The notes under the pieces: model-generated
The model's database searches: none
Seen by the model: only the letters and a program-made list of their open reading frames with translations
What the model was told of the DNA's origin: nothing
Source: Polytrichum commune
Lineage: Eukaryota > Streptophyta > Polytrichopsida > Polytrichales > Polytrichaceae
NCBI GenBank assembly: GCA_950295325.1
Contig: OX485809.1
Span: 18,864,144 to 18,928,143 of the forward strand
DNA: 64,000 nt
Direction: 5' to 3'
Position numbers and translations under genes: made by a program
Shown: positions 16,804 through 63,777 of the stretch, piece by piece
Numbering within the stretch: position 1 is the stretch's first letter
How the letters are laid out: every line of letters starts with the position of its first letter

Positions 16804-17401
16804 GGAGAAGAAAGAATAGATGAACAACACATAACAATAATCTTGGATCAATGTCACTTTTGTATTGAATGATGAAGAATACAATAATGGATGTAAATGA
16901 AAACATGTGATATCATAGCATCTAATAATACAAAATGAGACAGATCATAATAGTAGTCAGAGAATATTTGCAAGCAAGGCATAGAATCCTAAACCAGATC
17001 CTAAAAAATATCTCCTTTAGAAAGTAAGGCATAGAAAACTTGAACCCATAAAGGAGTTGTCTAATATAAGATTACCACATGGGACAAATACGGGTACGGA
17101 TAGCATGGAGAAAACGGCGTCAAATAATAAACAAGTTGGCAGAGTTGTAAAATGCGACTGGGCAGGCTGGATGTAGATGCAGGAACAATTAAAATTAGCC
17201 ATTATAAATAGAAGAAAGTGGATGTGGAAGGTTGGCAGATATAATCAAAATAGAAGCAGAATGAAAGACGCGTTGAAACAACTCGGTCATTGGACGCCAA
17301 TTGCAACACGGATGATCGTAATATGCGCCAGATTTATGTGAGCTATAAACACTAGAAGAATGTATGAAAGTGAAGTGGCAGAGGACATATTATAGACAGC
17401 A
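16804..17401. promoter_or_regulatory. Shared intergenic region between the divergent genes of the outer element
   Basis: About 600 bp separate the transposase start (16803, minus) from the first ATG of the plus-strand gene (17402). A TATAAATA motif lies at about 17,203-17,210 on the plus strand. The same arrangement exists in the inner copy, so this is presumably a two-way promoter. That is inference from layout. Confidence 0.45.
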
Positions 17402-17930: not shown

Positions 17931-18670
17931 AACCATGTGCGTTAACGCACAGGGTATGTGGTGGCGAATAAGGGAGCTTGAAAGTTAGTAGTAAAAACCC
18001 TGTGCGTTAACGCACAGGGTATGTAGTGGCGAATACGGGAGCTTGAAAGTTAGTAGTAAAAACCCTGTGCGTTAATGCACAGGGTATGTGCCAAGGACTT
18101 GGGAAACCAAAAAGTAAAAAGAGAAACCTATTTTATGAATTTGAAACGACGTATAGAGGGTTGGAGCAAGGAATTTGGCGAAAATGGGGTTACAATGCAG
18201 AAAATGACAAATATATGTGCTGAATATTGATACAATATATGACAGGGGCTAAAAAAACATAAAAAATAGTAGGAAATTTTTTTGTGCCCGCAAGCTCAAA
18301 ATTTACGAGGTGGCCAAAAACAATGAAATACATAGATGAATGAATAAGGGAAATGATTTCAAACAAGAAAAAAATATAAGAGAATATTGTAGCTACGGAA
18401 ATTTAGATAATATAAAATATTTTTATTATTTTTTTCGGACATCATTTGTATTATTTATAGATTTTAGAAGTTTCAGCAAATCTACCAAATCCAGACTTTT
18501 TTAATTTCTGATATGAACCCTCTGCGTTAACGCACAGGTCCTATGCGCGCAATTTTTGTAGACCTCCATCTAGGCTCATAGACCCCGTGCGTTAACGCAC
18601 AGGGTCTATGCGCGCAACTTTTATAGACCCCCAGCTAGGCACATAGACCCCAAGCGTTAACGCACAGGGT
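17931..18670. repeat. Six copies of a 24-bp palindrome, core TGTGCGTTAACGCACA
   Basis: Copies lie at 17931-17954, 17997-18020, 18062-18085, 18517-18540, 18582-18605 and 18647-18670. The first three sit in ~65-bp tandem units containing 'gagcttgaaagttagta'. The last three sit in units with 'tatgcgcgcaa'. The core is perfectly self-complementary in most copies, and the outer accc/gggt pair extends it. It lies in the 5' intron region of the outer ParB-methyltransferase gene. Confidence 0.85.
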
Positions 18671-19340: not shown

Positions 19341-20712
19341 TTTCTCTAATTTTTTTTTTAAACATGTTGTCTTTTGTAACCTTTACTTTCAAATATTTAT
19401 TGACATTTCTAAAACTTGGTTCATCAAAATGATTTCTAAAACTTACTTCATTGTTTGTATTTAGGACCACATAATGGATGTGGAGAAAACAATTCCTAAT
19501 TCCACTTATGATGATTCAACAAAAAATTCAACTCAAAACCGTCCATCCGTACAAGTTTATCATGATCATGACATCTCATCAAATCTTCATAATAAGAAAA
19601 AAATAAATTACTTGAACCCCTCAATGAATTTGACTCCGATGAAGACAATGATGGTGGTAATAAAACCTATCAAGAGAAAGTGTGGGAGCTTACGGACAAA
19701 CGAAAGGTCAATTCTACAACAACAATTTCTTCAATCCGTGCTGGACCCAATTCTCGTTTGTTTGTACTTTTATGTCGCATGGTTCCTATGCCTATTGTGC
19801 GTTTTGCTTTAAAGGGAGACATTACTAAATTGGAGGCTGATTTATTTAACGGTTATCGTGATGGTGACCGTGTATTTTACATATCGGCCACTGATTCATA
19901 GGGGACTTTTAATTTGTGAATGATGAGGTCCGTGCATCTTGGAGCCCAAATTGGACTCAAGCCAATGCAGTATTTGAATCTCATTTGGATTCAGATCCTT
20001 CATTTACTTCATACAAGAACAAAATGTTCTTCATATGGGATGGTAATCACAGATTTTTCGCTTGGAAAAATTACATTGACTGCATACATGCCGAAGATTA
20101 TGAGCGTCATATCTTCGTGGATTCTATCATTTTGGTACCCCAACCTGATGACATTCCAGGTTTGCTTACTGCTATGTACGACATCAACAAGTAATGTTTT
20201 TACCTATTAGTTTTCTTTCAATTATTTCTTGTTTATTTTTTATTTTTAAAATTATATCATCCTAAAACTAATCAATTTAATATTTTTTCAGGTCGACCGA
20301 GAACTCCCACGTTTCTACCAATTTGGTGCATACTTTGTATCGCATGCAAAGCATTGGCACCATTCCTTTGACTTCCTTCAAAAAACAATTGGATCCCAAA
20401 AGTTATAAGCAATGTGAGGAGAAGTCCGTCGAAACTTGGTATTCTTTGACGAGACCAATCTTTTTGGATTACATGTACAGTGTAAGTTCATCTAAATTTT
20501 CTTATTGTCTTCTTTATGTTTATTCATCTTCATTCACATTATATCTATATGTATTTATAAATTTTCAATTTTGTTTTATTTTTCAGCAAGAACTTGCTGA
20601 GGCTAGCAATATTGCTCTCAACCATTACAATGAAACTCGTCCCATTGAAAAAATATCAGAAGGAGTTTCAAAAGCAATGTCCATAGCTATCAACAAAAAA
20701 ACGTGCAATGTT

Positions 20713-20722
20713 GTCTTCTAGT
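20713..20722. repeat. Left target-site duplication of the inner giant element
   Basis: GTCTTCTAGT here and again at 38467-38476: ten identical bases on the two sides of the 17.7-kb inner element. Mutator-like elements usually make 8-11-bp duplications. With one copy removed the outer gene reads through. Confidence 0.9.
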
Positions 20723-20758
20723 GGACGAAGCTATTTTGCGAGCGGTGAGCGGTAACTT
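20723..20758 (+). repeat. Left terminal inverted repeat of the inner element
   Basis: About 36 bp, ending in GAGCGGTGAGCGGTAACTT. It matches the right end at 38,431-38,466 with only a few mismatches near the outer tip. Confidence 0.9.
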
Positions 20759-21034
20759 CCGAGATATTTTGATGAAAATGTTATTTTAAGCAGTAAGGTT
20801 ACAATATTTTTAGACTAAATGTTTTTTTAGTAAATGTTTTTTCTAAACTTAGTAAACAGTGGGTCCTATGGCCGTGGACAATTAAGGGCTCTGATACAGG
20901 AAAAAATGTTACTGTATCAGTGAAAAATATGGTGTAGGGTGTTAAATTGAGCATTTGTAACAAATATCAGTAATAAATATGGGTTTATGTCAAGCCAAAC
21001 ACGTACTGTTTCAATACCATGAGAATTAGTGGTA

Positions 21035-21715
21035 CAGTGCACCCTCTATAAGTATTAACAATTGGGAGTGATAATATTGTTAACACTTATAGAGTGTTAA
21101 CACTTATAGAAATACAGAGTTTAACAAATTAAAACATAACACGTATAAATGTAAGACAAGTAAACTATTGTTATAATACCAAATGAAGTTCCAAAATCCA
21201 ATTGAGGAGTCTCACTCCTCCATTTCCACTCCTCTACGATGGAAGAAGGCATCTATAGAGGTTTGCTGGAGCTGATTCACATGTAGGTGATCAATCTCTT
21301 TCTCAAACTTTTCTAATTTCTTGACAAAATGCATAACATCAGTAGACCTCTGCTCAAGATAATGACGTAAAGTTTGAAGAGAAGACTGCACATTCTTGTA
21401 ACACTCAGAAATTCGAACGCTGGTAGACTGGCTCAACATGCTAGGGTAAACTGACTTGACGAGGGAGGGACTTGCAGTCAATATCCTAAACCCTAATAAT
21501 TTCTAAATGGGGGTTATGTTACAATATATTACATGTGCTATGTTACAGTATATTGTATTGTATGGTATTATATAGTATAATAATAAGTTAACAGATATAG
21601 AGTGCAAAATTACAAAGAGGGGAGTAGCCAATCAGTTAACACTTAACACTTATCGTTATTGTAGTCTCCCCAAGTAGGAAGTAGAAAAAATGTTAACACT
21701 TATGGAATTTTGTAG
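21035..21715 (-). mobile_element. pogo/Tigger-like transposon remnant inside the inner element
   Basis: The left end reads TA|CAGTGCACCCTCTATAAGT, the classic Tigger-type start. Repeated 'gttaacacttata' blocks occur at both ends (21,075-21,110; 21,640-21,705). A minus-strand frame at 21481-21212 encodes the C-terminus of a pogo-type transposase, a coiled stretch ending QQTSIDAFFHRRG. The rest of the transposase is gone. Confidence 0.65.
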
Positions 21716-23335
21716 TGGCCCTTTTAGTCTCACTACATCATGATTATATAAAATCTTGCATACATATGTTTCTTTAAAGAAACAGAAAACTCTAAGAGTC
21801 AAGGTACTTCAATAAACCAGCCTGCAAAACTCGCTTCACTTCGTTGAAGCTAAAACTAGCTGCATGAATGAACGTGTCCGAATCTGAGTCCAAACCACAC
21901 ACTACTGTAAACAAATAGTACAAATGCTTGCAGTTGGCCCATTGACCCTTTTTTCCAATTGCTTTAGTCGCCATGTCCTTGAAGTTAGGACAAGTGCATG
22001 CTGGCAGCTGCGAAATCGTCAAGTAGTATTGCTGAACCTTTGGGGGCGTGCCGGAATCCAACGAGACGATGCATCCTAAGGCAGGGACTGGAAGCATGCA
22101 CAATTTGTGCACTTTGGCTTTCAGTGATAGGGCTGAGGCACAATTATTGGCGTGTTTTGTTGACGGGGCCTTCTTGTTGCGCCTAATCAACTTCCCTGAA
22201 CGCCGGGTGGGAAACTCATCCGGATATGCAGGTGTCGTGTAGCTTGCCAAGTCCAAAGATAACGGGTGGTCCTGAAAAATTCTGGAAGGTGTCATCTCCT
22301 TCCGCTGGGGCAATCTAAAGCCTGCGTTTTCTAAAGCGAGGATCTCTTTGCAGGTTAAGTTGGTCCCCAACTTAACCGGCCATACATCCGGAACGTTCGG
22401 GACTGAGACCACCTATCTCCTTTTTGTACCCTTAACGCATCTCTCTATGTCGTCATTGCAGAAAAATAAGTCTTGATGGTCCAATATCTTCTTCCGAAAG
22501 TTATCCATGAGGCCTGAGTAGGTAGGTGCAGCGGTGCTCTTCCCGTCTTCTACAATCCGAGTGACGCACTTCTTCTTGGTGATTGCTTGTAAAGCAAAGC
22601 AAGCCTTTGCAGATGTCTTAGGCAGCCGTGCGATGTGCCACTGGGCAGGGTTGCATAATGTCTCCTCAATCGCAGTGACATGGTGTCGATCCACCTGCTG
22701 CGGAGCGTCGTGTGTTCGAAGTTGCGGCTGCTCTTCATCTGCAGTTGTGGGAGAATGTGGAGTTCTGGGAGAATCTGGAATTGTCACAGAAGGTGGAGAA
22801 TCTTCAAGTCGGGCAGATCTGGTTTGGACGCGTGGTCGGGATACACTGATTTTGTCTGGCCTGTGAGATTCACGTTCGTCACCGAAAGCAGTGTCTGGTT
22901 TGCGCTTCAGAGAAACGAATACCTCTTCTCCTTCGAGGTGGGGAGTCCTTGTGCACCACTCGTCACCACCAGGCATCTTCAAGATGGCCTCATGCAACGG
23001 TTTCGATATTCCTGTTTTTGCGGCAGACCTTTGAGCACGCCTCAGTTTCAATTCCTCCTTCGACGGTCCAGTTCCAGGGTTGTCTCCCTTCAGGAATTGG
23101 GAATATGCTGAGCACTGCATGAAAGCATGCACGAAATCATCGACTGTTGCCACATAAAGGTCGCTGCCTCGATCGCCGGATTGATGCTTCCACTTGTTAT
23201 GGATAGATTCAGCAAGGTTACAGGATGGCATTTCCGCTAGTTCAGTTTCACTTAGATCCTGCAATGCCCATAGAGTCCGAATTAGAACAATGGCGAAATC
23301 AGTGTAGTTGAACAATAAAGAGTGAACTATACAGG

Positions 23336-24829
23336 TGTGAGGCCAAATCCACCACCCTTAAGCGTCCTAGTCCGGGTGATGGCTTTGAGAATCACACGTA
23401 TCTCTTACAACCTTGAACCATGTACAAAGAACGCATATTGTCTTCCCTCATTGTGCTTTATTAATGTTAGCCTCTTGGCTTGTGCTAGAGGTGGCCTTCT
23501 CAAGAGTCCACCCCGCGGCTTTAGCCACACATGCCCTTAAGGACATTCCCCTTTCTCGTTTAACCTTCACTTTTTTTTTTCTTGTCATCGCAAGAGTCTT
23601 CCACCTTCTCTATTAACAATGCAAGTGAGTTATTTTGACCGGGAGCTTCAAGTGTTGAAAAACACTTTACTCAACGGCTACACACACTCATACAATCCCA
23701 CACGTAGCACAACTAGCCTAATAGGTCTAACTACTTAGCCACCCCTAAGTGGTCTAATGTAATCTAGTTTTTTATATGCTAACACCCACTAATTGGGTGT
23801 AGCCTTGCTAACCCCTAAATATCATTAATGGTAGTTTGTTGCTAAGCAACTCCAGCCACAGTTGGCCGAGGCCTTCGCTGCCTCAGTAACCAGAACTCCA
23901 ACCAGTTGGCCGAGGCCTTCGCTGCCTCAGTAACCAGAACTCCAGCCCAGTTGGCCGGCCTCCGCTACCTCAGTAACCAAAACTCCAGCCACAGTTGGCC
24001 GAGGCCTTCGCTGCCTCAGTAACCAGAACTCCAGCCAGTTAGCCGAGGCCTTCGCTGCCTCAGTAACCAAAACTCCAGCCCAGTTGGCCAGCCTTCAAAT
24101 ACCCGAATGGGTAACCCCCTACTAGTTGCGCCTTAACACAACCCCCTTCATTCACTAACCAAATGTTTTCTAAGGTTCTCTTACTCTTTCCTTTCCCTTG
24201 CTCCTAATGAACTAATCTAACACACTAGTTTCACTAACTACTAACTACTCAACACATGCAACCCTACTCCTAAGAGCTCACTCCCTTGGGAGGTATTGAG
24301 AGAGAGAGTTATCCAATTAACTTCACTAAAAACTAATAATCCACACACGTGGCTCAAGCTCTTAAGAGCTTGCTCCCTTGAGAGCGCTTGATGGAGAGAG
24401 TTGCAAATGAGAGAAAGAACACCTTAAGTAGCAAAGAGGGAGAGAGGGAGAGAGGGAGAGAGAGGTGAGGATAGGGTGAGAGGATTAGCACCTCCAATCA
24501 CAATCCTTTAACCCTCTCCTCCAAAGTAGGGACTAATTCCCATCCACCAAGCTTCCTTCTTCCTAAACTACCAAGGTGGATCCAAAAGTGGGCATTTAAC
24601 CCGCGGAGCTCACCTTGCTTCACCTTACCCACTACTCACATAATCAAGGCATCTTCTTATTGAAATCAAACCTTGAAATAACTACACAACACATTCTAAT
24701 GCCTAAACTTAAATCCAAACCACACTTCACTCTTTTTATGTTTTGTGAATAACCATAACCCATCAAAGTCAAACTAAAATTGGTTTCGAAGAGTTAATCA
24801 CCACATGTGGGCACCATTTTGGGCTCACA
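23336..24829 (+). mobile_element. Solo LTR, TGTGAG family copy 1, 5-bp duplication ACAGG
   Basis: It begins TGTGAGGCCAAATCCACC and ends TTTTGGGCTCACA, flanked by ACAGG at 23331-23335 and 24830-24834. It lies in the transposase intron of the inner element. No internal retrotransposon genes are present. The end sequences match two other copies, at 40,764-42,449 (reverse) and 43,826-44,902. Confidence 0.92.
23845..24095 (+). repeat. About five ~48-bp tandem repeats within the solo LTR
   Basis: The unit reads roughly 'cagttggccgaggccttcgc' then 'tgcctcagtaaccagaactc'. Units differ by a few bases and by small deletions. A similar array was not found in the other two LTR copies. Confidence 0.85.
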
Positions 24830-26923
24830 ACAGGCAAGGGTTTGGGGAGTATAGACTTACCAACTCCATAAATCCACCCCATTGGCGGTAACGGAAATGC
24901 CAGAAGGCCAGCCAGAGCTCCAGTCGAGGTAGAGCTTGTTCAGTTGCTGCACCGGATGACATCCACCATGCCCGAATTGCCAGAAACTTTGTCTCTGCCT
25001 CTGCCATCGATTTCGCATTCTTGTATTGCTGGCATAGTATTCGATGCTGATATTGCAGGTCTTGACAGATATCAGCCTTGGTATGTTTCTCCAAGGACTG
25101 CGTCCAGTGGAAAAGACAAGTCCTCTCTCTGTCCACCATCTTCTCAGACGCATCTCCACTTCCGTATATGATTCGAACAGCATTCCAGTTCGCTTGGGCA
25201 CTGTCGGCCATGAAACCTTTAAAATTCACCTTGTCCACTCCATGTTGAGCCATGAGAGAGTTCAGGTTCTTCCATACGACTGACTGGGCTGCAACATCTT
25301 CAGACTACATGTCGCATACTGCGATGGTCATGACACGGCAATACGTAGAATCGTACACATGGCAAGCCATTGTCGTCCACGACCTGACCCATTTGACATG
25401 GTCAAACATTATCCAGGAGTTCTCCAAATCACCACCGGGTTGCATTCACTTGACCAGGTCCACTCCGCTGCCCGGTCCAACTTCAAACATCTTGAACACA
25501 AAGACCTTGTCCATGTCCGCTCCTTGCCCTGGAAACCTATTCTGCTGCACGAACCTCCAATTGCTAGCACCGCGTAACTTGGTAATACTGTCCATGACTC
25601 CAAAGCGACGCATAGTCCTGAACGTGGTGACTGCGTTACGAATGTTGGGCGAGGTGAGGTGCTTACACCGATCGAAAATACCTTGCAGCTCGTCCAGCTC
25701 CAAGATCTTCTGTGGGTCACCTTCTTTAGCAAAAAGGAGTGGGCCCAGTACTTCCTTAGCAGTTTCAAGCACAATAGCAGAGCGAGTGGCTGAGGGGGTG
25801 CGTTCGACTTGATCCCCAATCAAGCTGTCTGCCAAATCGATGAAGTCCCGATGATCACCAGACTTGACAGGATGGTCGTGAGATCCCAAGTGGACACAAA
25901 CCCTCGTCATGTGAGGTGTCCCAGTAACATAGTAGATCTTGGCAGCGCAGACAACAACACAGGTGGGAGGGACATTACAGGATTTGCAAACAACTGTCGA
26001 ACCAGCGGGAGGCTTGGACCCTACTTCAAACAATTTCTTAGATAATCCTTCCCACTCTGTTTCATTCACTTTGGAAGTCCTATGGTCTCACTGAAGATAC
26101 TCACAGGCAGGATTGTCGCAATGCAGGTGGCCCAAACAAGAAGATGTACGAAACAAAAGATTGAGATCATTCTGAATATTGGATGTAATTGTGCGAGACC
26201 AAGCATGGCCATCGTACCTTCTATCCATTCCACGAAGCTGCTTGGCTTTTGTATTCTGCCCATGCTCACCTAAAGGTGGAAATTCGAAGATAACGTCCCC
26301 ATCATAACGAGGGGGAAGGTAATCAACCTGCTGGAGTCTAATCGCATCAAAGTTAATTCGAGACAACACACTTTTGGACCGCTTACGAGATCCAAGGCCC
26401 ATCAATGAATGAACGATACTGAAAACAGGCTGAAGAGAGGGACTCACAGGAGGAGTTGTTTCCTGGCGAACTGCTTCTGTAGAGAGCGAAGGTCGGACTT
26501 CACTATCTGACTTTAAAACTTCTACATCGCCGTCGAAATCATCACTCAACTCATAAATTGTATTTAGACCGGGCTCAATTTTGACCTTGAACAACAACGG
26601 TCTCTCAATGCTAATAGTGGACGACTCCCTAAGTGTTAGAAGTTCAGTCGAACAATCAAACATAGACTCAGAGACTCCATATACACGATATTTTCCAGGC
26701 TTCAGCAACCAGAACGCCCCGACGTCATTCTCTACTCTAGTTTGACGAACTGCATGTGAAACTAGACCGGTATGATCGTCAAAAACTTCCTCTTCGACAA
26801 AGATAGTGACCTCACGACATGAAACCTCAAACTTAATGTTGTGCAAGTGACTATAGCATGACCGTCTTCACCCAATGGAAAGAGGACCGGAACAGAATGA
26901 TGTTCAGCACGAAGCAGGGCCAT

Positions 26924-27331
26924 AGTATTGCATAGAACTTTGAACAAAACAAGCACTATGAACATTGAAAGGGTATGAATATATAACAGGAGAGAAATTA
27001 CAGTGCAGACTGGTAATTTATGTCACAGTAATTGCAATTTCAGAAGTTAAAAGAGAGTCATGCAGAACAAGCAGAAAGACAGCTGAAAATACAATGTTAG
27101 ATGTAAGTCTGAGATCTGGAAGAAAACGATATTTATTTCAAACATATTTTTCCAATATAAATAAAGCAAAAGAGGTGGGAGCACCATATACACACAGAAG
27201 TTGATATGTTTACTTGTTTTCAAATAGGAGAATCCAAAAACAGACATACATTTGTCGGTTATTATACATATTGGCAATAATGCGAAGAACATGATAGTAG
27301 CATAGGAACGCCGTACAACTTGCGGACAACA
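26924..27331. promoter_or_regulatory. Shared promoter region of the divergent transposase and ParB-methyltransferase genes, inner copy
   Basis: The two start codons face away from each other across 408 bp. AT-rich TATA-like motifs occur for both directions: 'gaatatataac' near 26,975 (self-complementary core) and 'aatataaataaag' near 27,155. The equivalent interval in the outer copy is ~600 bp. Two-way promoter function is inferred. Confidence 0.45.
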
Positions 27332-30300
27332 ATGGGTAGGCGAGGAGTTAAATCTTCCAGGGCCACAGCTAGAGGATCTAAAGGGGAAAAACCATTTGAT
27401 GTTTCAGCGGTAGCTCCAGTAGTTTTATTTCCTGTATCGAAGGAAGAAAACCAAGTTGACAAAGGGGGAAGTGAGGTGATGTTTATGTGCTATCATAATT
27501 ATATTTCTTTATATATCTTCCATTGCCGTGTGGGCAATATTATTGGCTCACATTTGTTGTTGAATCTGGAATGTGACTTCGACTTGGCTTTGACATTTGG
27601 AACAGGGCATGACCCAGACAAATGAACAACCTGGTGCAGCCTCGACTGCCTCAACATCGGATCATACTGAGCAGCAGGTCTGCAAAGATTGCTTCAATTG
27701 TTGAATTTGAGGGTTTTGGGTATAGGTTAAGGTTCTGCTTTCAATGATAACACTTTATGTGGAGTACAACATACCTACTAAGCACAGGGCATATTTACTG
27801 AACAGAGCCTTGCCGAATTCGATGAGAACGCTGATGTAGTTGATTTATGCGAAGCCAGCATGGACAATGACGAGCATCAATTCGGGGAAGAGGTACAATG
27901 TCAAACCCTAAACCAAAATTTGAACTCATTTCAGGGCATATGGTAGGGGGGGGCTTAGATTCAATTTGCTTTAGGTTCATAAATTTGTGGATAATGCGAT
28001 CAACTAGGCAGGCTGGGTTTAGTCTATTCGGGTCCGAGCAATGTCCATGAGGGTCCAGGTTTGATAGGGGAATTCTGTAAGGGTAAGGGGTATATAGGTT
28101 TTATGGTCAAATTTCCAGCTAATTTGAACTCATTTCAGGCCATATGGTAGGGGGGGGCTTAGATTCAATTTGCTTTAGGTTCATAAATTTGTGGATAATG
28201 CGATCAACTAGGCAGGCTGGGTTTAGTCTATTCGGGTCCGAGCAAGGTCCATGAGGGTCCAGGTTTGATAGGGGAATTCTGCAAGGGTAAGGGGTATATA
28301 GGTTTTCTGGTCAAATTTCCAACTAATTTGAACTCATTTCAGGCCATATGGGTAGGGGCGGGCTTAGATTCAATTTGCTTTAGGTTCATAAATTTGTGGA
28401 TAATGCGATCAACTAGGCAGGCTGGGTATAGTCTATTCGGGTCCGAGCAATGTCCATGAGGGTCCAGGTTTGATAGGGGAATTATGCAAGGGTAAGGGGT
28501 ATATAGGTTTTATGGTCAAATTTCCAGCTAATTTGAACTCATTTCAGGCCATATGGTAGGGGGGGCTTAGATTCAATTTGCTTTAGGTTCAGAAATTTGT
28601 GTATAATGCGATCAACTAGGCAGGCTGGGTTAAGTCTATTCGGGTCCGAGCAATGTCCATGAGGGTCCAGGTTTGATGGGGGAATTCTGTAAGGGTAAGG
28701 GGTATATAGGTTTTATGGTCAAATTTCCAGCTAATTTGAACTCATTTCAGGGCATATGGTAGGGGGGGCTTAGATTCAATTTGCTTTGGGTTCAGAAATT
28801 TGTGGATAATGTGATCAACTAGGCAGGCTGGGTTTAGTCTATTCGGGTCCGAGCAATGTCCATGAGGGTCCAGGTTTGATGGGGGAATTCTGTAAGGGTA
28901 AGGGGTATATAGGTTTTATGGTCAAATTTCCAGCTAATTTGAACTCATTTCAGGGCATATGGTAGGGGGGGCTTAGATTCAATTTGCTTTAGGTTCAGAA
29001 ATTTGTGGATAATGCGATCAACTAGGCAGGCTGGGTATAGTCCATTCGGGTCCGAGCAATGTCCGTGAGGGTCCAGGTTTGATAGGGGAATTCTGTAAGG
29101 GTAAGGGGTATATAGTGTTGAGTGACAACATTACTAAGGAAACAATTGATTTGAGAAAGAGTTATAGATCAGTTGGTACAAGAAGGAAGCAATCCCAAAA
29201 AGAGCTTTGAGGAAATTGGTACAAAAGGAGGAAGGAATCTCAGAAGAGAGCTGCAACCTGTAAGTTGAGGAAGAGAGCCACAAGAGACTATAGTCTGCCG
29301 AGGAGGGCGAGGAGAAGGAACCCTGGCACCGAGACTTAGAACCCTGGACCCCTCGGCCACGGAATTAGGTCCTAGCCGCGTAAATACGGGACCTTACGCG
29401 CGGCAATAGGGTTCCTAACCCACGGGAATGGGATCCCAGCAGCTTAGCAAAGGAAATTAAGTACTTAGTGATAGAGGATCATTATAAAAGTATATTAGGA
29501 CTTATAGGAAGAGTATATTAGGGCATATAGGATGTAAGATTTTGAGAACCAATGACTATGTGAAGAGGCATTATGGAAGTATTTAGGAATGTAAGATTTT
29601 GAGGATCAATGCAAAGAGGCATAATGATGGAGTATATAGGAATGTAGTATTTTGAAGAATATGATTAGGGAATATACTAGAATGTAGGATTTTGAAGAGG
29701 TACAATTACGGAATATATGGGAATTTTGGGATATTAAATTCAAGAGACATTATGAAGACACTAAGGGGAATATAGGACTATGGTACATTCTACTAGTATG
29801 TTCTAATTACAAATTATCGGAATCAAATCAATCAATATAAAGATTTGATTCGATCCTCAAAAAGGGATTTAGAATGTAACTACAACAAGGATATAGTAGA
29901 ATCTTAGGAATACGAACATTAGAGTGGTAAAACGGTTACAACCGTTTATGTTAGATATCATCTACATATGTCATAGATAGATGATGATCTAGGAAAGTGA
30001 AGATTAACAACCACTCTAATTAGAGATTTAGGATAGAGAGAAAAGACTATATAAGGGAAGCATTTTAGGAGACCTATACCTCATTTTCTACACAACGAAG
30101 TTATCTTAAATTTGAGTGTCAAGAATCACTTGAAGCTTTTGTAACTCTCCTCTCGAGGAACTTTTGCAATATACTTATCTTTTGTACAAATGCGTGTGAT
30201 CTTTCTACCTCTCTCAATTTGAACTACGAGTCGTCAATGGTACTTTGTAGCTTAAGTGATTGAGCAACCGAGAGTAGAGTAGATTGAGTAGACTCTTTTG

Positions 30301-33300
30301 AGAAAGAACTCAAAAGATAGTGTGAGGGTGAGAACAAAGCGCTCAAGACAAATTGGAGAATCAATCGGACTTTGAGAGAGATTAAATTGAGAAAGCGATT
30401 GTCAACTTGAGTGAAGGAAACAAGATTATCTCTCAAAGCGGAACTTATCATTGATCTCCTCAAAAGGGAATTATAAATATACATGTGATTGAATGATTGA
30501 AGAATTATATGCATGTTATGATTTAAGCAAAACAACTTAACAATTGCAACTCCTTCAAAAGAGGAGGAGCTTATTATTGAAAACTACATAATTGACTTAT
30601 AAGTATTATACATATTATACTACATATTGATTGATTGAACTTATGATTAACAAGAATGATGAAGACATTAATTCATATCAAAGTTTGAATACATATGAAT
30701 GAAGTAATATTACTTACTACAATTGTCATTGAAGCTTCTTACTTTAAGATTCTTTGTGAGTTGTTGGATGTCATTACAATTTGAAGGATTATCTATTCAA
30801 GAGAAGATCTCTCTCTCTTGAGCAAAACTCAAGAGAGATAGGTTTATCTTCTCGTCATCAAGAAACACTTTATAATAAAAGTGTTTCTTCTCTTAAGATA
30901 CTTTGTGAGTTGTTGGATGTCATTAACAATCAAAGAGGAGTTTTTTCTCTTGAATAAACCTCAAGAGAGTTATAATTATTCTTGTCATTAAAACACTTTG
31001 AATGTTAAACGTGACATTGCAAAACAATCAATGATGTGTTCATGAAATTATAACTACTATATGCATATATGTCAAGTTACAATATTATAAGTAGTAACAC
31101 TTGAGTTTAAAAAGGAAGACTCAAGAATATTAGATCTTCTTCATCATTATAAGATTATTATTTATGAACTACTAACATTAAGGATTCATACAATTTATTG
31201 AATACTATATTATTATCAAGGATATTGTTACACCTCTTGAAGCTTTCTTTAAATCTAATGATTCTTATTATCAATGATGCCTTACATTGAGAGTAAGAAT
31301 TAAGATAATGAGATTGTGTTCACTCCAATAATTATATTCATATCATAAGGAGAAGAGAGGGATTATTAATTAGAGACCGAACATATTAATGAGGCATGGT
31401 AGTTCTCAAGCGAATATAAATTTACGTGATGTCTCACCGTGAGTCTTCTTGAGCTAATTTGCAAGGGAACGACCCACGAGTTGCATCAGGTTGTCGCGAT
31501 TGCGGACACAGATATGGAGGACGATGGAGGAGAGGACCAGGATGAGTCTCACAACGACGACGAGCAGTTTGGAGATGACGAGGACGAGATTCAAACCAGG
31601 CAGAAATTAAACTCCGTTGCCACCATTTCTAGCCTCAGATTCCAGAAAATTTCAGTTTCACGCATCTCGATTCCACTTTGTAGGTTGGTTGCCATGCCTT
31701 TGGTGAGGCCTACCCTCCAGAGTGACCTCGATAAGCTTGAACAAGAGTTTGTTCATGGCTATCGTGACGGGGCTGCAGTGCTGTACGTTACATTGACAGA
31801 TGAACATGGAAGTACTCAGGAGGTTACATCTGCGGTGAAGAAGAATTGGGGATCCATCTGGAATGCGCAGAATGAGGAATTCAACAGGTATCTCCTATCG
31901 GTGCCTGAACTTTCACATATGGAAAATCTTATGTTTTTTGTCTGTGATGGTAATCACAGATGGCAAGCATGGCTCAACCATATTGACCGCCTTCATAAGA
32001 ATGATCCTTATTGGCATTTTAGAGTGGACTCCATTCTCCTCAACACGAAAGACAAAATCGGCTTGATTATGCATGTGATGCACACGATCAACAAGTAAGT
32101 GTGATTTTCAGCGTTTTTATTATCTTTGAACATGTTTCTGAATTCGAAACATTTTCATATATGTATTGTTGTGTTTCAGGCACACCGAGGACTCCCATGT
32201 CCTAACGAGCATTGTCCACACGCTATTCAGAGTTAGGAAATATGGACAAATGTATCTTGAAAAACTGAAGGACGTGTTGTCAGCAGCTGACTTCATGCGT
32301 TGTAAGCGTGGCCAAAAAAAAACATGATACACCTTACCATTGAATGTTTTCATCTCCTTCATCTTTCAGGTAGTGCATTTGTTCCTTTTTATTTGAAGTA
32401 CTGTGCTTCAGTCATTTTGATTAAATGTATAGTTCGTTGAGGGTACTTAAGTTCTTTGTTTAAGGATTCTTTGTAACAGGATTGTGGATTAATCGCAGCA
32501 CGAACTAACTTGTGGATAATTGGCAGCATGAAATAAGCATAGCTTCTGACGAAGGTGTCCGCCAGCTTATTGAACAGTTTGATGGGGTTGTATCTCCTCC
32601 TCAAAAAGCGGCCGCGATGAAGTCCGCAGTGGACAAACGATGTATTGCATTGCGTCAAAAGATGGGAAAACTGGTCGCGGTTGCAAATCCAGACCTCATT
32701 GATGGTTGGTTTGATGAGGTAAGTTGCATTCCTTGAATCTAGTGATTTATCAGGTAGATCATTCTGAATTTGATTTTAAGATATCTGCTTTGTCCATTTT
32801 TAATGAGGATGTTAGTAATTGGGTAGATTGAGCGGCATTATGCCAATAATTCAATATCTCCAGAGCTCAACTTGGAAAAGCTTCAGCTAATTGCTACGTC
32901 AAGAGCATCCCCAATTTTCAAAATCAAGTGGCTTCAATACATAAACGCCTCTGCCGCAACTCGAGAGGCAAGAAGAGTTCCTGCGAAGCCCGTTACTGAA
33001 GAAAAGCTGTCAATTTTCCTAGCAAAGGCATGCTGGTGGGCTGGGGTATGAATATCTTGACACTTCAGTATTTTCCAACACAGTTTACAATGTTGAAGTT
33101 GAAGTTTGAGAACTTGGAAAATTAAGGAAATAATACCCATACACTTTGGGTTGTACTATGGGCTCCTTGGAGCTATAAGGGTTAAGTGTTTTCCAATTTA
33201 TATAGCATTGCCTTTATGGACACACCATTTAATAGATGGGTGAAATGGTATTCAAAGCTTCTTCCGAACATCACTACCTTTGCCGAAAGCTTGACCAGTT

Positions 33301-36300
33301 GACCTCCAATGGTTGCTTTGGATTATGATAGGCCGAGTTTGTGCCCTATTGAACCTATACACTAAGTGCAACCTCAACACATATGGAAAGTAGCAATATG
33401 GATACTAGCAATATGGATACTAGCAATATGGAAACTAGATAACTAATGTGGATGTAACAAAGTATACCTTAGATAACTAGAAATTAATAACTAAAACTAG
33501 ATAGAGCTATCTAGAACTTAAGTTAACTTCCACTCTTGAAATAAGGCATGGGGGGAGCTATATATGAGGAGAGGTTATATTCAGCCTTACATATGTAGAC
33601 CTTGATCTTAAGTCCATTTGAATATGTTGGTGTAAATTTTGTGGTGCATATCATTGGGCATTGAGGTCATGCATTGAGAGGCCTCATCCGGGCTTCTCCA
33701 TGCACAAGAACAAAAACATGTTTTTATCCTAATTAATTTAAGCTAATTTCGAAAGAAAGGTTAACCCAACTAAAATCAACTCATTTTTCAAAGTGTAGTT
33801 TGAGTGCCTTAACATTGATGAAGATTTGGGTTTAAGAATGACTTGAGGCCCCTTGCATACTCAAGTGTTTTCAAGACTTGGTGAGGCTTGTAGAAAATGT
33901 GCTTATAGGTGATATATTGAGCCCTTGATCCTTTTAACTTTAAAAAAGAAACCAACTTCTTTCTATTATGATAAGGTTTCTCTATAGTAAGTATTCCTTC
34001 ATGAGTACGGCCCCATTACATAGAAGGAAGCCCTTCATGAATGGGCGGACCCCCCTATTGCAAAGTGTTGGTACCTTGAGCATTTTTCCTCATGAGCAAG
34101 TTGTGTGGTATTTTTTGTAGAAGGAAATTTACCAGTCGTGACATTCTGGGACTAACCGCACTCAGCTGAGTGCTCCTTAACATTCCGCCGCCGCAGTGGG
34201 TGTATCGGGGCCGATACGTGCAATCTCTTTGCTACATTCCCTGATATTGTGTAATTTGTTTTCATTCAGATTTCCGATAATGCGACAAATATTTTTGAGG
34301 ACATAGTTCAACAGGATTGCATCCCCATCGACATGTCTGTGCCTTCCGAGCCTCTAACTTTGGCTGCATATATTGAGGAATGCAGGATCGCGCTTTGGGA
34401 CCATGCATTTATCTCTGTGTTTCGCGGTCACGACTGCTTTAAAAAAAATGATGATTTCCAGGGATACAAGGGAACGGACCTTGTTGTGAGAAGAGTCCTC
34501 TTTAGGTGTTTGCTCTGTTTGCCTTTCATGCTTTGATTTCATACTTCTATTTCCCTCTTTATCAATGACAAAATTTACAGGTTCTGATGGCCATCATTAT
34601 TTTGCAGGTTCTTCAAGTATGAGCTCCTTCCAACGAAAGCGATTCTGAAAGAGGACTTGCCGGTTTTCTTGAGTACTTGGTTGGACCGGTCCAACGCTGC
34701 ATGCATGTTCACAGCTGCCCAGCAGAGAACATGGACGACTTCGCACCGTGCTTCTGGCGCGTGGTATCTCGATTGTGCTACACATTACACTCCACCTTTT
34801 GAGATGGAATTGAGGAAATCACGCGAGGCTATTGGAAAGTCTGGAGAGGAGATGCAGGACTTGAAGGGCATCGAGGATGACAACGAGAGGGCTAAGGCAC
34901 TCAAGAGGCGGATTGAAGATGACCGCAAGAAAGCCCTCAAGGTGAAGGAGGCAGAAGAAAAGGCTCACCTGAAGGAGTTGGAGAGGCAGCAGAAAGCAGC
35001 TGCAAAATCGACGAAGAAAGGCAAGAAGAAGGTGACTACTCCTATAGAGGTAGAAATGATAAGTGATGTGCAGCCTAGTCCAACCGTGGACTCTGGTTCC
35101 CAGATTCGCTCAGTTTCAGCGAGGGGTACTAAGAGGGACACCTCATATGAGTTTTTTTCCCAGTTGCTTGTTGTTGATCTCACAGAGGAGGCCAATTGCA
35201 TGAATGATGAGTTCATTCTTAACTCATCATTGTTTGAGGTCCTTGGCGGTGAATCGGGCAGTTTATCACCCCTCTATGATGACCTCAAAGCTTTTATTTC
35301 TAAGGTATTTTTATTCTCATTTGCCCATCTGATGTGGTTATGTTTTGCAACTGGTAGTATTTAGTTCTCCATTTCTATTTGCTTTTGAAATTGTTACGTT
35401 TCTTACATGCATTGAATTGCTCTATCAACAACATTCATCTGATAAAAATCGTGCGCACAAAGGATCTTCTGGAAACCACAATTGTGTGGATTTGATCCTT
35501 GTGGACCAACCAGAAGGTCTCCCAGTTCCAGGGATTTCGAACCCTATTTCATCTGTGCCCTTATGGAACCAAGATTCTAAGGAATGGCTGGAGCCCATTT
35601 TTGATTTTGCCGACCAACACCTCCAGGATGATGGTGCACTCATCATCATTCATCCTTTTCGATTGAGCACAAAGTCAAACATACTCGGATACTGCAAGTC
35701 ATACGGATTTGAAATCCGCAAGGAGTGGTGGGGGATGAACCGTCTGCATTTGACATCAGCAGTACATCCGACATCCACTGTAAGTGATTTGATCTTGAAA
35801 TGCATATGTTTTTGTTTGTCATATATTTGTTATTATTTTCAATTGTAATCTTTGCCCTTTGTTCTTGTCCGGCATGACCAGTTTGGATCTTCACACATTA
35901 TTTGATTCTCCATGGACATTGTCAATCTTGTCTACTCTTCTTGTTTGAATGCTAGACCATGAGATTTGGCATCTGTTTGGCGGTGAGGAGTCTTCCAGGG
36001 GTTCCCAAGTCTACATTTTCTTTTCAGCCAATCCCTGCTCTTGACCACCACGGAGTAGACGTTGCCAGAGATGACATCCTCATGAACCTGGTCACGAAAG
36101 ATGATCAGCTCATGAATGGCAATTTACCTTGGCGAGGCCCTCGGGAGAAGTCCGTCTTGCTCATGCAGATGCTTATAGAAGCGTCTACCTTTCCTGGGGA
36201 TCTCGTGGTTGACTGCACTGCAGCCACTGGTTCGTTTTCTCAACCTAAACCCTACTCAGTCTCAGTTTATTTTCCTCAAGGTTTCAACTCAATTTTATTT

Positions 36301-36869
36301 GTACATTCACTTATCACCTAAATCATGTTCACTTCTCTAGGGTCGTCCATACACGCTTGTCGCAATATCAACCGACATATTGCCGCGTTGGAGCCGGATG
36401 AGGAAATCTTCAAGGCCTTACTGGCACCCCTCATCCGGGCTTCACCTACTCTTTCGCCTCCTCACCTGGATCCACTCACCATCGTGGATGACATTGATGG
36501 CGAGGAAATTGAAGTTGAGCGGATTGTGAAGAAATCCCGATTCAGTAAGTAAGTCTAAACGGTCAAGTATGCATTTCTATTGAGATCATGTTGATTTATG
36601 TTACTTCTTTTTGTTGTCACTTCTTATTTCGGCTTTCGTTTTGCAAGTGCGAGATCCTGATTTCTCCACAGCATCGACATTTTTTTTGTAGGCCGACATT
36701 TTTCCCAAGCCCTCTTAAACCATTTGAGTTGCCTACATATGCCGAAGAAATCGCTTTTTGTTTTGCAAGTGAGGGCATACGGAATCCCACTTCGCGCTCC
36801 CGTTCTCTGTCTCGTAGAGGCTTGAGTTTTCTAGATCTAGAAGCTGTTCAGTGTGATGAGGAGGAGTGA
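27332..36869 (+). CDS. ParB-like domain fused to a beta-class DNA methyltransferase (13 exons, near-intact), inner copy
   Basis: Exons: 27332-27475, 27606-27677, 27788-27892, 31490-32094, 32180-32369, 32527-32718, 32827-33045, 34270-34505, 34608-35304, ~35430-35779, 35956-36229, 36341-36548, 36692-36869. Nearly all junctions keep frame. The N-terminus is basic, then acidic (EDDGGEDQDE). Exon 4 holds a ParB/sulfiredoxin-like domain (RLVAMPLVRP, GYRDGAAVLYV, FFVCDGNHRWQAW). A Lys/Glu-rich coiled stretch follows in exon 9. The C-terminus is a permuted (beta-class) methyltransferase: VDLILVDQPEG (motif IV; canonical DPPY), LQDDGALIIIHP, then VVDCTAATGSS...ACRNINRHIAALEPDEEIF (motif I and after). 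In bacteria and phages such fusions methylate adenine-N6 or cytosine-N4. Faults: TGA at 32325-32327 (TGG in the outer copy) and no AG acceptor before exon 10. The substitutions in motifs I and IV make activity doubtful. Confidence 0.75.
27921..29115 (+). repeat. Six tandem copies of a 203-205-bp unit in an intron
   Basis: The marker 'tgaactcatttcag' starts at 27921, 28125, 28329, 28534, 28737 and 28940. Units are about 95% alike. Each contains a pyrimidine-rich 'actcatttcag|g' that resembles a splice acceptor. The array lies between exons 3 and 4 of the inner ParB-methyltransferase gene. The last unit is cut at 'gtatatag' by unrelated DNA. Confidence 0.92.
29116..31435 (+). mobile_element. 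Unrelated intronic insertion, possibly a solo LTR
   Basis: The 204-bp array breaks off at 29115 and foreign DNA begins TGTTGAGTGACAAC. It contains degenerate ~60-90-bp units ('gaatgtaagattttgag', 29,530-29,760), and at 30,047 'actatataaggg' followed by a U5-like stretch. There are no genes. It ends before exon 4 at 31,490. I could not find a matching 5-bp duplication, so LTR identity and the right border are unproven. Confidence 0.35.
33046..34269 (+). other. Long intron of the ParB-methyltransferase gene
   Basis: Donor at 33046 (gtatga), acceptor before 34270. It holds a short tandem 'caatatggatactag' at about 33,390-33,440 and otherwise nothing recognisable. It is an order of magnitude longer than its neighbours, so it probably contains an insertion. 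Confidence 0.5.
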
Positions 36870-38430
36870 ACGCATTCGTACACTTTTTCAATGATTGCTT
36901 GCGATTTTAGGCGAATGTTGTGTTGAATAAATGACCCTAAACCATTAGTGTCACCTCATGTAACTTGGCATTCAAGTGTCTTTTCTAATACCTCTGCATG
37001 AGTATGTTCAACAATGATATGAGATGCACACCTATATTACACAATGGTCTACAAGTTGACTAAAGTGTACACCAACGAAAAGTGTACCCTAAACCCTCCT
37101 TGCACTCTATTATTCAATAAGACATAGAGGTTAACTACCTCATTATCCACCATAGCATCATCCATGTACCAAAATTCAAAACAAAACCCAAAAAGATAAA
37201 GAAATGTAGTTGTAAAAATATAGATCAAAACATGAAACAAAGACTAAGGAAAACTAAACCGAAAAACTAAACCAAAAAATTAAAGATGATAAGTATAGAA
37301 TATCAATACGTTTTTTAGAATTGCAAATAATAAGAAGATACACTGGAAGAAGAATGGAAGAATTAAAAAATGAGAAGATAGAATGGAAGAAGAATGGAAT
37401 AACCCAAAAAATGCTTGTGCATAAAATATGGACATCATCCTATGTTTTATGTTCAAATCAAACATCAAACCCCAAGAAATCCAAGGCCATATCCAAAGTG
37501 GCCACTCCCACATGAAATATGAACCACTTGGCATGCCGAGACTCAACCTGATACCAATGATTTGAGGTCAAATTTATAGATTCAGGTTGAATGTAGCTAA
37601 GCATGAAACCCAAACATTGCATGCCCACATTCAACCTGAAGCTATCAACTTGACCTCAAATCAAACATAAAACCCCTAGGCCTTGTCCAAAGTGGCCATT
37701 CCGATACCGAACATGAAATCTAAGCCATTGGGCATGTCGAGATCCAAATTGAAACCAATGATTTGAGGTCAAATTTATAGATTCAGGTTGAATGTAGCTA
37801 AGCATAAAACCCAAACATGGCATGTCCACATTCAACCCAAATGTATAAACTTGACCTCAAATCAGACATAAAACCCCTAGGCCTTGTCCAAAGTGGCCAC
37901 GCCGAGACCGAACATGAAATCTAAGAGACCCAAATTGAAACCAATGATTTGATATCAAATTTATGGCTTCAGGTTGAAAGTAGCTAAGCATGAAACCCAA
38001 ACATGGCATGCCTACATTCAACCCGAAGCGATAAACGTGACCTCAAATCAAATAGCAAACCCCAAGGCCAACAGACCTCGGATCCGAGGCCTTCTGCAAA
38101 CTAGCCCATCCACTTGAAATGCTGAGACCCACCCAGAAACCACACCCTTTAAACACAATCAGAATGTAGGGGCTCAAGCCACGAGGCATCGGATCCGAGG
38201 CCTTGTCCAAGTGGGATTTAGTCCACCTCAAATGACAACCTGTAACCATCCGAGACCCATTCCCAACCTACAAACCTTATAAGATAATGTGCAAGCAAAT
38301 ATAGTATAGGTTCCTCAACCACGGTTATAGGTTATTTTTGTCAATAAATTTGTCAATAAATATTTCAATATTTAGCTCTACACCGCGGTCATATGGCATG
38401 TTTCACCACACATAATTCAATATTCTACAA
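36870..38430. repeat. 3' flank of the inner element with a ~185-200-bp tandem repeat
   Basis: The phrase 'tttgaggtcaaatttataga' recurs at 37561, 37762 and, changed, at 37948; the linked block 'ccaaggcc/ctaggccttgtccaaagtgg' recurs between them. The array spans about 37,440-38,060. Its units contain inverted 'gacctcaaatc/gatttgaggtc'. No coding sequence was found before the terminal inverted repeat. Confidence 0.7.
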
Positions 38431-38466
38431 AACTTACCGCTCACCGCTCGCAAAATAGTTTTTCCC
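38431..38466 (-). repeat. Right terminal inverted repeat of the inner element
   Basis: Read inward from 38466: GGGAAAAACTATTTTGCGAG then CGGTGAGCGGTAAGTT. It pairs with the left end at 20,723. The flanking GTCTTCTAGT at 38467-38476 is the second copy of the target duplication. Confidence 0.9.
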
Positions 38467-38476
38467 GTCTTCTAGT

Positions 38477-39560
38477 TTCACAAAACAACTGGCGATTGCC
38501 GATATCAACCTCACACCTGCTTTCCTTGAAGAAGTTAAGTACCATTGGAGTTCATTTTCGGTGCCTGAAATGTTGCAAGAGAAACTTCATCGTGTGGCTG
38601 TCATTAATGTTGATGCAGAAGTTAAAGTCGGATGGCTCAAACTTTGGAATGGCAATAGGTTTGACAAAGATGCATTACATTTCCCGAAATCGCCCCTCTC
38701 TGATTCTGCACTTCATGATTGGTTATCAAAGTCCATATATTGGGCACAGTTGGGAAAAAAATCTATTGAGGAACTTCATAGTATTCTTTCATCTCCTCTT
38801 CAATTGCCAGCAGATGTGCCTACTCTCTCCGAGTATATCCAAACCTGGAAGTTTGCGGCTTTCAATTCAATCTTTTATCGTGAATTCAAAAGCGGAAAAG
38901 TAAAAAAATACAACGCTTGGAATGAACAACCTAATATTGATCTTGTTATGAAACGTGTTTTATATAGGTACAACCTTATCTTTATTATTTGTTTTTTTTC
39001 TTACATGTTTTAAATTATCATTCAATATTTGGCTCATAATATGTTTGTGTGTAGGTACTTTCGATATGTTTTGATTCCGCACAAGTGCGTTACAGGGGAA
39101 CCTCGTTTCTTTCCAAATTAACGTGATACTGGTGCAAAATATTCATATATGTTCACTACTGATATTTGTTTAGATTGGTCGCTCCCACACTATGAGGATT
39201 GTAGTTGGTATCTTGATTGTCCTAAGAATGCATGTCCGCCAAGTGAGAAGGCAATCCGTCAAATAAATGATACAAAAAAATAGATCCTCGTGATACTGCA
39301 ATCTTGCAAGCACAAATTTTGCAGCTTAAACTTAGAGAGCCAGATCCACAAAACGTCGTAAAAGAAAACTTGTTCATGAAAACAAAATACAAGGTCAATC
39401 AAAAATTTCATAACATGAAGGAATTGCTTGTTCTTTCCAATGATTTGGATAAGAATACACTCGGAGGCGAAAGTTCAAAATCTGGGTGCAATGTATTGGA
39501 ATTTCATTGCTCTAGCACCTATGATGCTATTCATCGTGCGCCAACATGGGGATATTAACT
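38477..39560 (+). pseudogene. ParB-domain/methyltransferase gene, outer copy, 3' part
   Basis: The reading frame interrupted at 20,722 resumes here: TTC ACA AAA CAA CTG GCG continues the exon, and the protein QLAIADINLTPAFLEEVK aligns with the inner copy's KLVAVANPDLIDGWFDE. Further matches are LSEYIQTWKFAAF, then VMKRVLYR ending an exon with AG|gtacaa at about 38,968, the next exon from 39055 (YFRYVLIPHKC), and SWYLDCPKNACPP. The same intron position and phase exist in the inner copy. Damage: TAA at 39119-39121 and a TAG plus frame change at ~39,282. It ends at 39,560, before any clear methyltransferase motif. Confidence 0.75.
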
Positions 39561-59963: not shown

Positions 59964-60161
59964 CCCACGGGTGTTCACCCGTGGGCCTTTGCACTCACGA
60001 GGTGGAGAGGCCCGTGGGCCTCTCCCCTCATCTGGTTGAAAGTGCCCACGGGTGTTCACCTGTGGGCCTTTGCACTCACCAGGTGGAGAGGCCCACGGGT
60101 GAACACCCGTGGGCCTCTCCCCTCATCTGGTTGAATGTGCCCACGGGTGTTCACCCGTGGG
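59964..60161. repeat. Second cluster of the CACGGGTGTTCACCCGTG palindrome, in a 5'-UTR intron
   Basis: Full copies at 59964-59985, 60045-60066 (one change), 60092-60113 and 60140-60161, plus a half-copy at 60,011. They sit in ~80-95-bp units with 'gcctttgcactcac', 'aggtggagaggccc' and 'tctcccctcatctggttgaa'. The intron lies between the 5'-UTR exon ending at ~59,890 and the coding start at 60,341. Confidence 0.9.
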
Positions 60162-63770: not shown

Positions 63771-63777
63771 GGAGGGA

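Follow-up and report, generated by a model that had tools for sequence, protein, structure and literature searches.

A transposon family of Polytrichum commune that pairs a transposase gene with a gene for a ParB-like and methylase-like accessory protein

The elements and their genes

The stretch of the Polytrichum commune genome considered here (C7:18864144-18928143, 64,000 nucleotides, hereafter the window) holds copies of a family of DNA transposons of about 12-18 kb, in which two divergent genes encode a transposase of around 1,160 amino acids and an accessory protein. The latter is predicted to consist of three parts, namely a ParB-like domain, a middle region and, at the C terminus, a domain resembling the N6/N4 DNA methylases. 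Counts across several subfamilies put this pair of genes at about 140 transposase loci.

The best preserved copy in the window, the inner element, is 17,744 bp long and is complete as judged by its termini, with inverted ends of 33 bp that match at 29 of 33 positions when compared by eye. It begins GGACGAAGCTATTTTGCGAGCGGTGAGCGGTAA at 20723, and a near-inverse of this sequence closes the element at 38466. These ends, together with the perfect 10-bp target-site duplication that flanks them, establish the inner copy at 20,723-38,466 that had been proposed in an initial annotation of this DNA. The motif at the ends has four matches in the window against 0.01 expected from shuffling. Its principal features are as follows.

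20723-38466, no strand assigned: inner element; inverted ends and duplication read directly
20713-20722: target-site duplication GTCTTCTAGT, left copy; read directly
20723-20755, plus strand: left terminal inverted repeat; read directly
21792-26929, minus strand: inner transposase gene, with in-frame stops and a C-terminal CxC..CxH
27917-29115: tandem array in the divergent spacer, 203-bp unit repeated 5.9 times; no palindrome found inside
31601-32095, plus strand: ParB-like domain in a single exon, motif DGNHR; from AlphaFold2 and fold matches
35483-35782, plus strand: methylase-like exon 1, motif IV DQPEG
36022-36231, plus strand: methylase-like exon 2, motifs X and I (RGPREKS ... DCTAATG)
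36346-36447, plus strand: methylase-like exon 3
37510-38097: tandem array of 201-bp units by the right end, holding inverted repeats of 37-46 nt
38434-38466, minus strand: right terminal inverted repeat; read directly
38467-38476: target-site duplication GTCTTCTAGT, right copy; perfect match to the left copy

The inner element has inserted into an exon of the ParB gene of an older, 3'-truncated outer copy, and the left end of a third copy lies at the edge of the window.

11449-39556, no strand assigned: outer copy, into which the inner element has inserted; retains its left end and is truncated ahead of the methylase
12241-16944, minus strand: outer transposase gene, one in-frame TGA at 13817
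19596-20722, plus strand: outer ParB gene, exons 5' of the insertion, DGNHR near 20039
38477-39556, plus strand: outer ParB gene beyond the insertion, from alignment to the inner copy and a relative
63776-64000, plus strand: left end of the third copy, subfamily B, running past the window edge

The outer copy starts at 11449 and not, as first annotated, at 11,451, the GAGGG terminus being that of complete relatives. Homology to a complete relative ends at 39556, so that in the window this copy has neither a methylase nor a right end; outer-type relatives elsewhere, unlike the window's outer copy, do have the methylase. The third copy continues farther right with kinase-like, ParB-like and VDIPDG methylase segments. 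The inner and outer copies do share one layout, as had been claimed, since both the transposases and the ParB genes can be aligned exon for exon, without any change of order or orientation. The accompanying claim of conserved intron sites is borne out only as a match of exon limits in these alignments. Both transposases in the window are broken, the inner one by stops at 26088 (TGA), 25305 (TAG) and 22413 (TAG), and copies with open frames exist elsewhere in the genome.

Further copies define the family's termini. A 16.2-kb copy on C6 (L008 and L009) is flanked by TTCCTGCTGT; at F18 an inner-type element is nested in an outer-type one, with the duplication CAATACCAGC carrying one mismatch; and the outer-type copies L003 (about 12.3 kb) and L004 (about 11.7 kb), whose ends were read, are flanked by AGTTGGCATG and CTGCCTACAC, respectively. 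Thus all five copies with both ends read (window inner, C6, F18, L003 and L004) have 10-bp duplications. The left and right ends of the outer type differ slightly (GAGGGAAGCTATC and GGGGAGTGCTATC), and a single end pattern, which misses the right ends of L003 and L004, gave 95 and 104 matches genome-wide. Among the 100 matches listed, 37 adjoin a counted outer transposase, and 37 of 44 such transposases have one.

As a separate observation, a protein-kinase-like stretch with HCD and DWG motifs lies between transposase and ParB in two, and only two, of the fetched loci (L090:2582-3670 and L086:2176-3261); it matches PF00069 at E 3e-5, which is under the cut-off of that family.

Pairing of the two genes across the genome

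The genome searched amounts to 408 Mb, of which about 406 Mb lies in seven contigs, and protein searches of it score the best candidates only, such that the counts are lower bounds. With outer-type transposase exons a divergent ParB exon is found within 20 kb in 70 of 93 cases, against a shuffle mean of 0.34, with none on the wrong strand and one on the wrong side. A methylase lies within 25 kb in 70 of the 93, both partners are present in 67 and at least one in 73 (shuffles 0.2-0.3; wrong strand 0 or 1; wrong side 1), and the ParB exon is followed by a methylase in 119 of 127 instances. These figures come from outer queries, as an inner ParB query, too distant for this purpose, gave 5 of 93; 127 of 150 ParB rows and 136 of 150 methylase rows were used, the remainder being at most 58% identical and mostly from other subfamilies. 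For the inner type, among the matches listed, 71 of 150 transposase exons have an opposite-strand ParB exon upstream within 20 kb (shuffle 0.77; wrong strand 5, wrong side 4), and a same-strand methylase exon lies downstream of ParB in 79 of 150 (shuffle 0.54; wrong strand 1, wrong side 2). The inner-type methylase set drew on the 150 matches listed out of 184; the 130 rows for exon 1 entered the counts, and the 20 for exon 2 were set aside.

Some of the 20 outer transposases without a counted partner do have a diverged one. The locus beside the window, C7:18930233, carries a subfamily-B ParB-methylase gene, separated from the transposase by the kinase-like stretch, and for 5 of the 20 a methylase site of subfamily B lies on the expected side at a distance of about 11 kb; the true rate of pairing therefore exceeds the counted rate. 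Recurrent co-occurrence in a conserved order was the test set in advance for the proposed pairing, and that is clearly what was found, both partners accompanying 67 of 93 transposases where about 0.3 is expected for either. The opposite pattern, with the ParB-methylase gene normally lying outside these elements or the transposase normally standing alone, is not what the genome contains, and the claim survives.

The ParB-like domain

An AlphaFold2 model of the ParB-like exon is of good quality, with a predicted local distance difference test score (pLDDT) of 86.3 and a predicted template modelling score of 0.84, and this confident model points to a ParB/sulfiredoxin fold for the accessory protein. 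The top eight Foldseek rows are all Noc, ParB or sulfiredoxin (probability 0.97-1.00, best E 0.012), and the first 33 include ParB, Noc, KorB, PadC, sulfiredoxin and SbnI folds. The VIA Z score to ParB 7bm8 is 8.7 (93 residues, 2.1 Å). Within the alignment of 24 ParB exons a GxxR motif, which we take to be the nucleotide box of ParB, reads [DE]GNHR in 22 rows by eye, the exceptions being L066 (KGNHR) and L068 (DGNYK), with the G and N invariant.

Sequence profiles do not detect this relationship. There is no Pfam ParB_N match in the inner, outer and subfamily-B exons, a profile search of the PDB with the exon alignment returned no ParB, and the same alignment found no relative in viral contigs and prokaryote genomes, where 44 and 28 pattern matches, respectively, were none of them confirmed. 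The ParB-like domain of the initial annotation thus has the support of the modelled fold but not of Pfam.

Palindromes upstream of the ParB gene

What might such a domain bind? Three palindromes are found in the outer copy, the first in its divergent spacer.

17936-17951: palindrome TGTGCGTTAACGCACA
17997-18020: palindrome ACCCTGTGCGTTAACGCACAGGGT
18587-18600: palindrome GTGCGTTAACGCAC

Spacers of the outer type contain a 64-bp repeat with AAACCCTGTGCGTTAACGCACAGGGTTT and a 32-bp repeat with GTTTGGGTCGnnCGACCCAAAC. The 20-mer CCTGTGCGTTAACGCACAGG has 490 sites in the genome, its reversed control having none. Of the first 50 sites listed (C1 below 21.3 Mb), 45 fall within the 6.5 kb that precede an outer ParB exon, zones that make up 0.3% of this part of C1; the other five are separated from such an exon by 17 kb, still on its upstream side, and an inner-type methylase match (C1:472536) intervenes. 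All ten outer ParB exons listed in that region have at least one such 20-mer.

Other lineages have palindromes of their own. The C6 copy carries AAATGTGTGTCTCGG-CA-CCGAGACACACATTT 13 times, 12 in the spacer and one in an intron; F18 has a shorter form of it seven times, in spacer and introns; and subfamily B has TGTTTGTGCGCTAGCGCACAAACA and variants, three and four times. Six further ParB-upstream regions (L097-L102) were fetched as a test. L102 has CTGTCGGATCCGACAG inside an array of 171-bp units repeated 8.8 times, L100 has three copies of GGCATCTCGGATCCGAGATGCC at 3.5-4 kb upstream, and L099 has one perfect GGGTGCCGTTAACGGCACCC plus an imperfect form in an array of 95-bp units repeated 3.3 times. 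The window inner copy belongs to the L097/L098 lineage. Overall, repeated palindromes of 16-34 bp occur in seven of nine ParB lineages (outer, B, C6, F18, L099, L100 and L102; not the window inner lineage or L101). They amount to about five distinct sequences, the half-site TGTGCG being common to outer and B, and C6 and F18 sharing theirs.

It could be argued that these palindromes are minisatellites that propagate themselves, or else sites used by host factors, with no connection to the ParB protein. Their variation in sequence from lineage to lineage, and their absence from two of the nine, would fit such an origin. Against it, about five different palindromes of similar size are present in seven of nine lineages, six MULE-domain loci (those of Mutator-like elements) contain a single inverted repeat in 19.7 kb, and shuffling five palindrome-holding repeat units produced a palindrome in 0 to 6 of 2000 trials. 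We regard this explanation as rather unlikely.

Palindromes are also seen elsewhere in the window. Those of sequence CCCACGGGTGnnCACCCGTGGG occur at 47380-47670 (five copies) and at 59963-60162 (three perfect copies), the latter upstream of another multicopy gene at 60447-63066 on the plus strand, which has 38 listed copies at 83-89% identity and a ParB-like-looking FYVVNGQHTL with no Pfam match. A palindrome pair, GGGCGCTGTC.. / ..GACAGCGCCC and TGGACTTCCAT.. / ..ATGGAAGTCCA, lies at 14601 and 15076, between two outer transposase exons, and recurs at L097:4918 and 5393 and at L102:1791 and 2266; it is probably another inserted repeat family.

The methylase-like domain and its motif IV

The C-terminal part of the accessory protein is recognisably related to the beta-class N4-cytosine/N6-adenine DNA methyltransferases, both in profile and in its motif order of IV-X-I. 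PF01555 (N6_N4_Mtase) scores 35.3 bits in subfamily B against a cut-off of 26.7, with both scanned copies above it, just misses it in the inner type (25.6 bits) and reaches 20 in the outer type. The structures of DpnA (PDB, E 5e-8) and CcrM are matched mainly over motifs X-I, and contiguous methylase frames are found in L086, L088 and L089.

Canonical motif IV is (D/N/S)-x-P-(Y/F/W), its aromatic residue stacking on the flipped base. The family departs from this consistently: in 46 of 46 rows, two of them read by eye, the aromatic position is acidic (xxP[DE]), with DQPEG, DIPEG, DLPEG or DIPES in 24 inner-type rows, QFPDG or QCPDG in 14 outer rows and EYPDG in eight third-type rows. In subfamily B, where the search pattern could find D or Y only, nine of ten genome sites read VDIPDGMP and one VDIPYGMP. 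All six comparators have Y, namely four phage proteins (DLPYG, DIPYN) and two proteins from small contigs (DPPYG). The phage proteins themselves have DLPY and DIPY, so what changes consistently is the aromatic residue, which becomes acidic. The profile alignment of family and phage methylases spans motifs X-I only, and the correspondence of motif IV therefore rests on the pattern hydrophobic-D-(L/I/V)-(I/V)..[DEQ].P.G shared with L085, L084 and the phage proteins; a second basis is the Pfam match of L086, the copy with Y, which starts at profile position 1. Motif I is of the GxG type in two subfamilies (DLTAGTG, DLSVGTG), and the inner and outer types lack the first of its glycines (CSTG, AATG).

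The small contigs C10 and C12 (L084 and L085) consist of bacterial- and phage-like DNA, including a fusion of ParB_N with a methylase, and are probably contamination. Their DPPY methylases were considered as host genes and rejected because they look bacterial or phage (GC content of the C10 stretch 0.637); they serve as comparators only.

The initial annotation placed a beta-class methyltransferase domain in the inner copy. That domain is there, and also in outer-type relatives, but with an acidic motif IV. Could it nonetheless be an active N6-adenine or N4-cytosine methyltransferase that labels the element's DNA, either for the transposase or as a guard against silencing? The motif order, the Pfam match, the GxG-type motif I of two subfamilies, the purifying selection described below and the same architecture with DPPYG in the phage-like L085 would all favour activity. 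The acidic residue at the fourth position of motif IV (46 of 46, and D in nine of ten) makes ordinary base methylation doubtful, however, and the lost glycine in two types points the same way, so that we consider an active enzyme unlikely. The domain retains the signature of the fold and a motif I resembling a SAM site; given its acidic motif IV, it most likely serves to bind DNA or a cofactor, or else is a strongly altered enzyme, and is not an ordinary DNA methyltransferase. The earlier proposal of a self-encoded methyltransferase that marks or shields the element is weakened to that extent, with an element-protective protein kept as a reading.

Selection and mosaic structure

In the diverged types, purifying selection acts on the ParB and the methylase part of the accessory gene alike. 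The ratio of non-synonymous to synonymous divergence (dN/dS), computed after dropping pairs with dS up to 0.02 or uncomputable and with dS above about 1.5 being saturated, is 0.087 for methylase exon 1 of the inner type (167 pairs) and 0.070 for the third type (26 pairs). For ParB it is 0.194 in the outer type (33 pairs) and 0.155 in the inner type and relatives (51 pairs).

Two outer lineages show that the halves of the gene may have separate histories. Within the same elements dS between the lineages is 0.03-0.09 for the methylase exon and 0.41-0.52 for ParB (six cross-lineage pairs), a five- to fourteen-fold lower synonymous divergence of the methylase (L003, L004, L035/L071, L036/L068, L038/L069). 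This disparity suggests exchange of 3' halves between elements, the outer-type copies being either mosaics or the products of gene conversion of the 3' half. Likewise, to take one example, the locus at C1:18.38 Mb joins a transposase exon 95% like that of the window to a ParB exon only 71% like the window's.

The class of the transposase

The 10-bp duplication falls inside the 8-11-bp range of the Mutator superfamily. The Mutator label given initially rests on this length and is not confirmed by profile tests: three pieces of the transposase have no Pfam match to the MULE domain (PF10551) at E up to 10, and hhalign against the genome's own MULE loci gave a probability of 0.1% and no profile match. 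Those loci are many. SWIM zinc fingers are frequent in MULE transposases, and the SWIM designation stands as far as the visible CxC...CxH pattern goes, but the Pfam SWIM match (E 0.055) is below its cut-off. The AlphaFold2 model of the transposase core is of low confidence (pLDDT 37.6). Open frames of 2,390-2,527 amino acids that resemble fusions were discounted, the one fetched (L010) crossing a stretch of N and being an artefact.

A separate element of the window, at 41294-44728, has inverted arms of 252 bp and carries a gene that matches DUF7869 (E 3e-45); TTTAGGG-type repeats occur in the window too, for example at 51096 and 55606.

A role for the accessory protein

We favour, with moderate confidence, the reading of an accessory protein that recognises the very element encoding it and serves to protect or marshal that element, with a methylase domain that is not an ordinary methyltransferase. 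By analogy with ParB at parS and VANC at tandem motifs, the protein would bind the element, in most lineages through the palindromes, and from there may load or spread along it, counter silencing and/or assemble transposition complexes. As for the downstream effect, anti-silencing appears likelier than catalysis. A more specific version, which we put forward tentatively and at well below an even chance, is a ParB/parS-like system of the element's own, in which a clamp would load on the palindromes, spread and bring along the re-purposed methylase, giving a silencing-proof domain, with palindromes and ParB having codiverged.

Several observations weigh against the favoured reading. Z scores of 7-8 are common for unrelated best matches according to the tool's own note, and 8.7 is barely above this; the case for the fold therefore rests on nearly all top rows sharing one fold. 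Pfam found no helix-turn-helix DNA-binding domain behind the ParB domain. The window inner copy, with its 203-bp array, and L097 and L098 have tandem arrays without a palindrome, L101 has none either, and the upstream regions of L099-L102 were placed by ParB exons and not by element ends. One subfamily-B copy (L086) has Y in motif IV, and outer methylase exon 1 (dN/dS 0.363, 71 pairs) gives no strong signal of selection because its divergence is so low (dS 0.05).

A simpler view would make the second protein plain transposition machinery that binds at the ends or at subterminal repeats as an aid to the transposase, in the manner of such second transposon genes as mudrB and tnpA of En/Spm. It would account for the conserved divergent pairing and for the GAGC-type motifs that cluster at outer-type ends, six or seven within 150 bp of an end. 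Yet the palindromes sit in spacer and introns, not at ends, and ordinary end binding needs neither a ParB nor a methylase domain; we give this view a low probability. That the gene is a captured passenger without a role in the element, capture of genes by transposons being known from Pack-MULEs (PMC6431247), is very improbable and already largely refuted by the dN/dS values and by the co-occurrence in several diverged subfamilies.

Comparison with known systems

The nearest likeness to these elements is Sola1-1_Ec32, a large DNA transposon of the brown alga Ectocarpus with a ParB-methyltransferase accessory gene, such genes being cited also for green and red algae and a self-methylation role having been proposed for the algal elements (PMC12477816, consulted in part). 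There too, a gene running opposite to that of the transposase encodes a single long protein in which a ParB-like domain is combined with an N4C/N6A methyltransferase domain. By description, which is the level of this comparison, the two differ in that the alga has a Sola1 transposase, and here a different transposase with 10-bp duplications is found in a plant-type genome; the altered motif IV and the palindromes are features here of which the consulted parts of that paper make no mention for Sola1-1_Ec32. A literature search for ParB-methylase cargo in Mutator elements or plants, with preprints and most subscription journals outside its coverage, found none beyond PMC12477816. The statement that no plant Mutator element with this cargo has been described accordingly holds for what was found, but ParB-methyltransferase accessory genes as such are known in algal transposons. 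As far as the searches show, the new features are the different transposase, the several many-copy subfamilies, the palindromes, the consistent alteration of motif IV and the added kinase-like stretch.

The VANDAL elements of Arabidopsis offer a functional parallel. They encode an accessory protein, VANC, and have lineage-variable tandem motifs upstream and in introns (PMC5735166, PMC10398659); VANC proteins bind short motifs within tandem repeats that differ between related elements, and bring about a loss of methylation throughout the element (PMC5735166). Unlike the protein considered here, VANC is not described, in the parts of these sources consulted, as a ParB or a methylase, and its motif YAGTATTAY is not palindromic; for the present family an anti-silencing effect is inferred only.

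In bacteria ParB acts at 16-bp palindromic parS sites. It spreads from parS as a clamp. The ParB-parS and Noc-NBS systems resemble the present one in having a ParB fold near repeated palindromes of at least 16 bp, and differ in that the fold here is fused to a methylase-like domain with no recognised helix-turn-helix. The phage or prokaryotic fusion L085 on the small contig C12 likewise has ParB_N followed by N6_N4_Mtase in one protein, with a canonical DPPYG motif IV and a single uninterrupted frame, unlike the elements. The N4CMT of bdelloid rotifers is reportedly a host gene, whereas the domain here is transposon-borne and altered in motif IV. N4CMT is nevertheless an example of a bacterial-type amino-methyltransferase working in a eukaryote (PMC8885841).

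Significance

With this family a remark on algae from a single paper becomes a system that can be tested on the scale of a genome, with many copies, several subfamilies, ParB domains accompanied by candidate binding sites and a methylase domain that is conserved yet altered in its catalytic motif. If the accessory protein does act as proposed, machinery of bacterial segregation would be linked to the conflict between transposon and host in eukaryotes, and the family would represent a second, independent case of coevolution between a VANC-like protein and its tandem targets.

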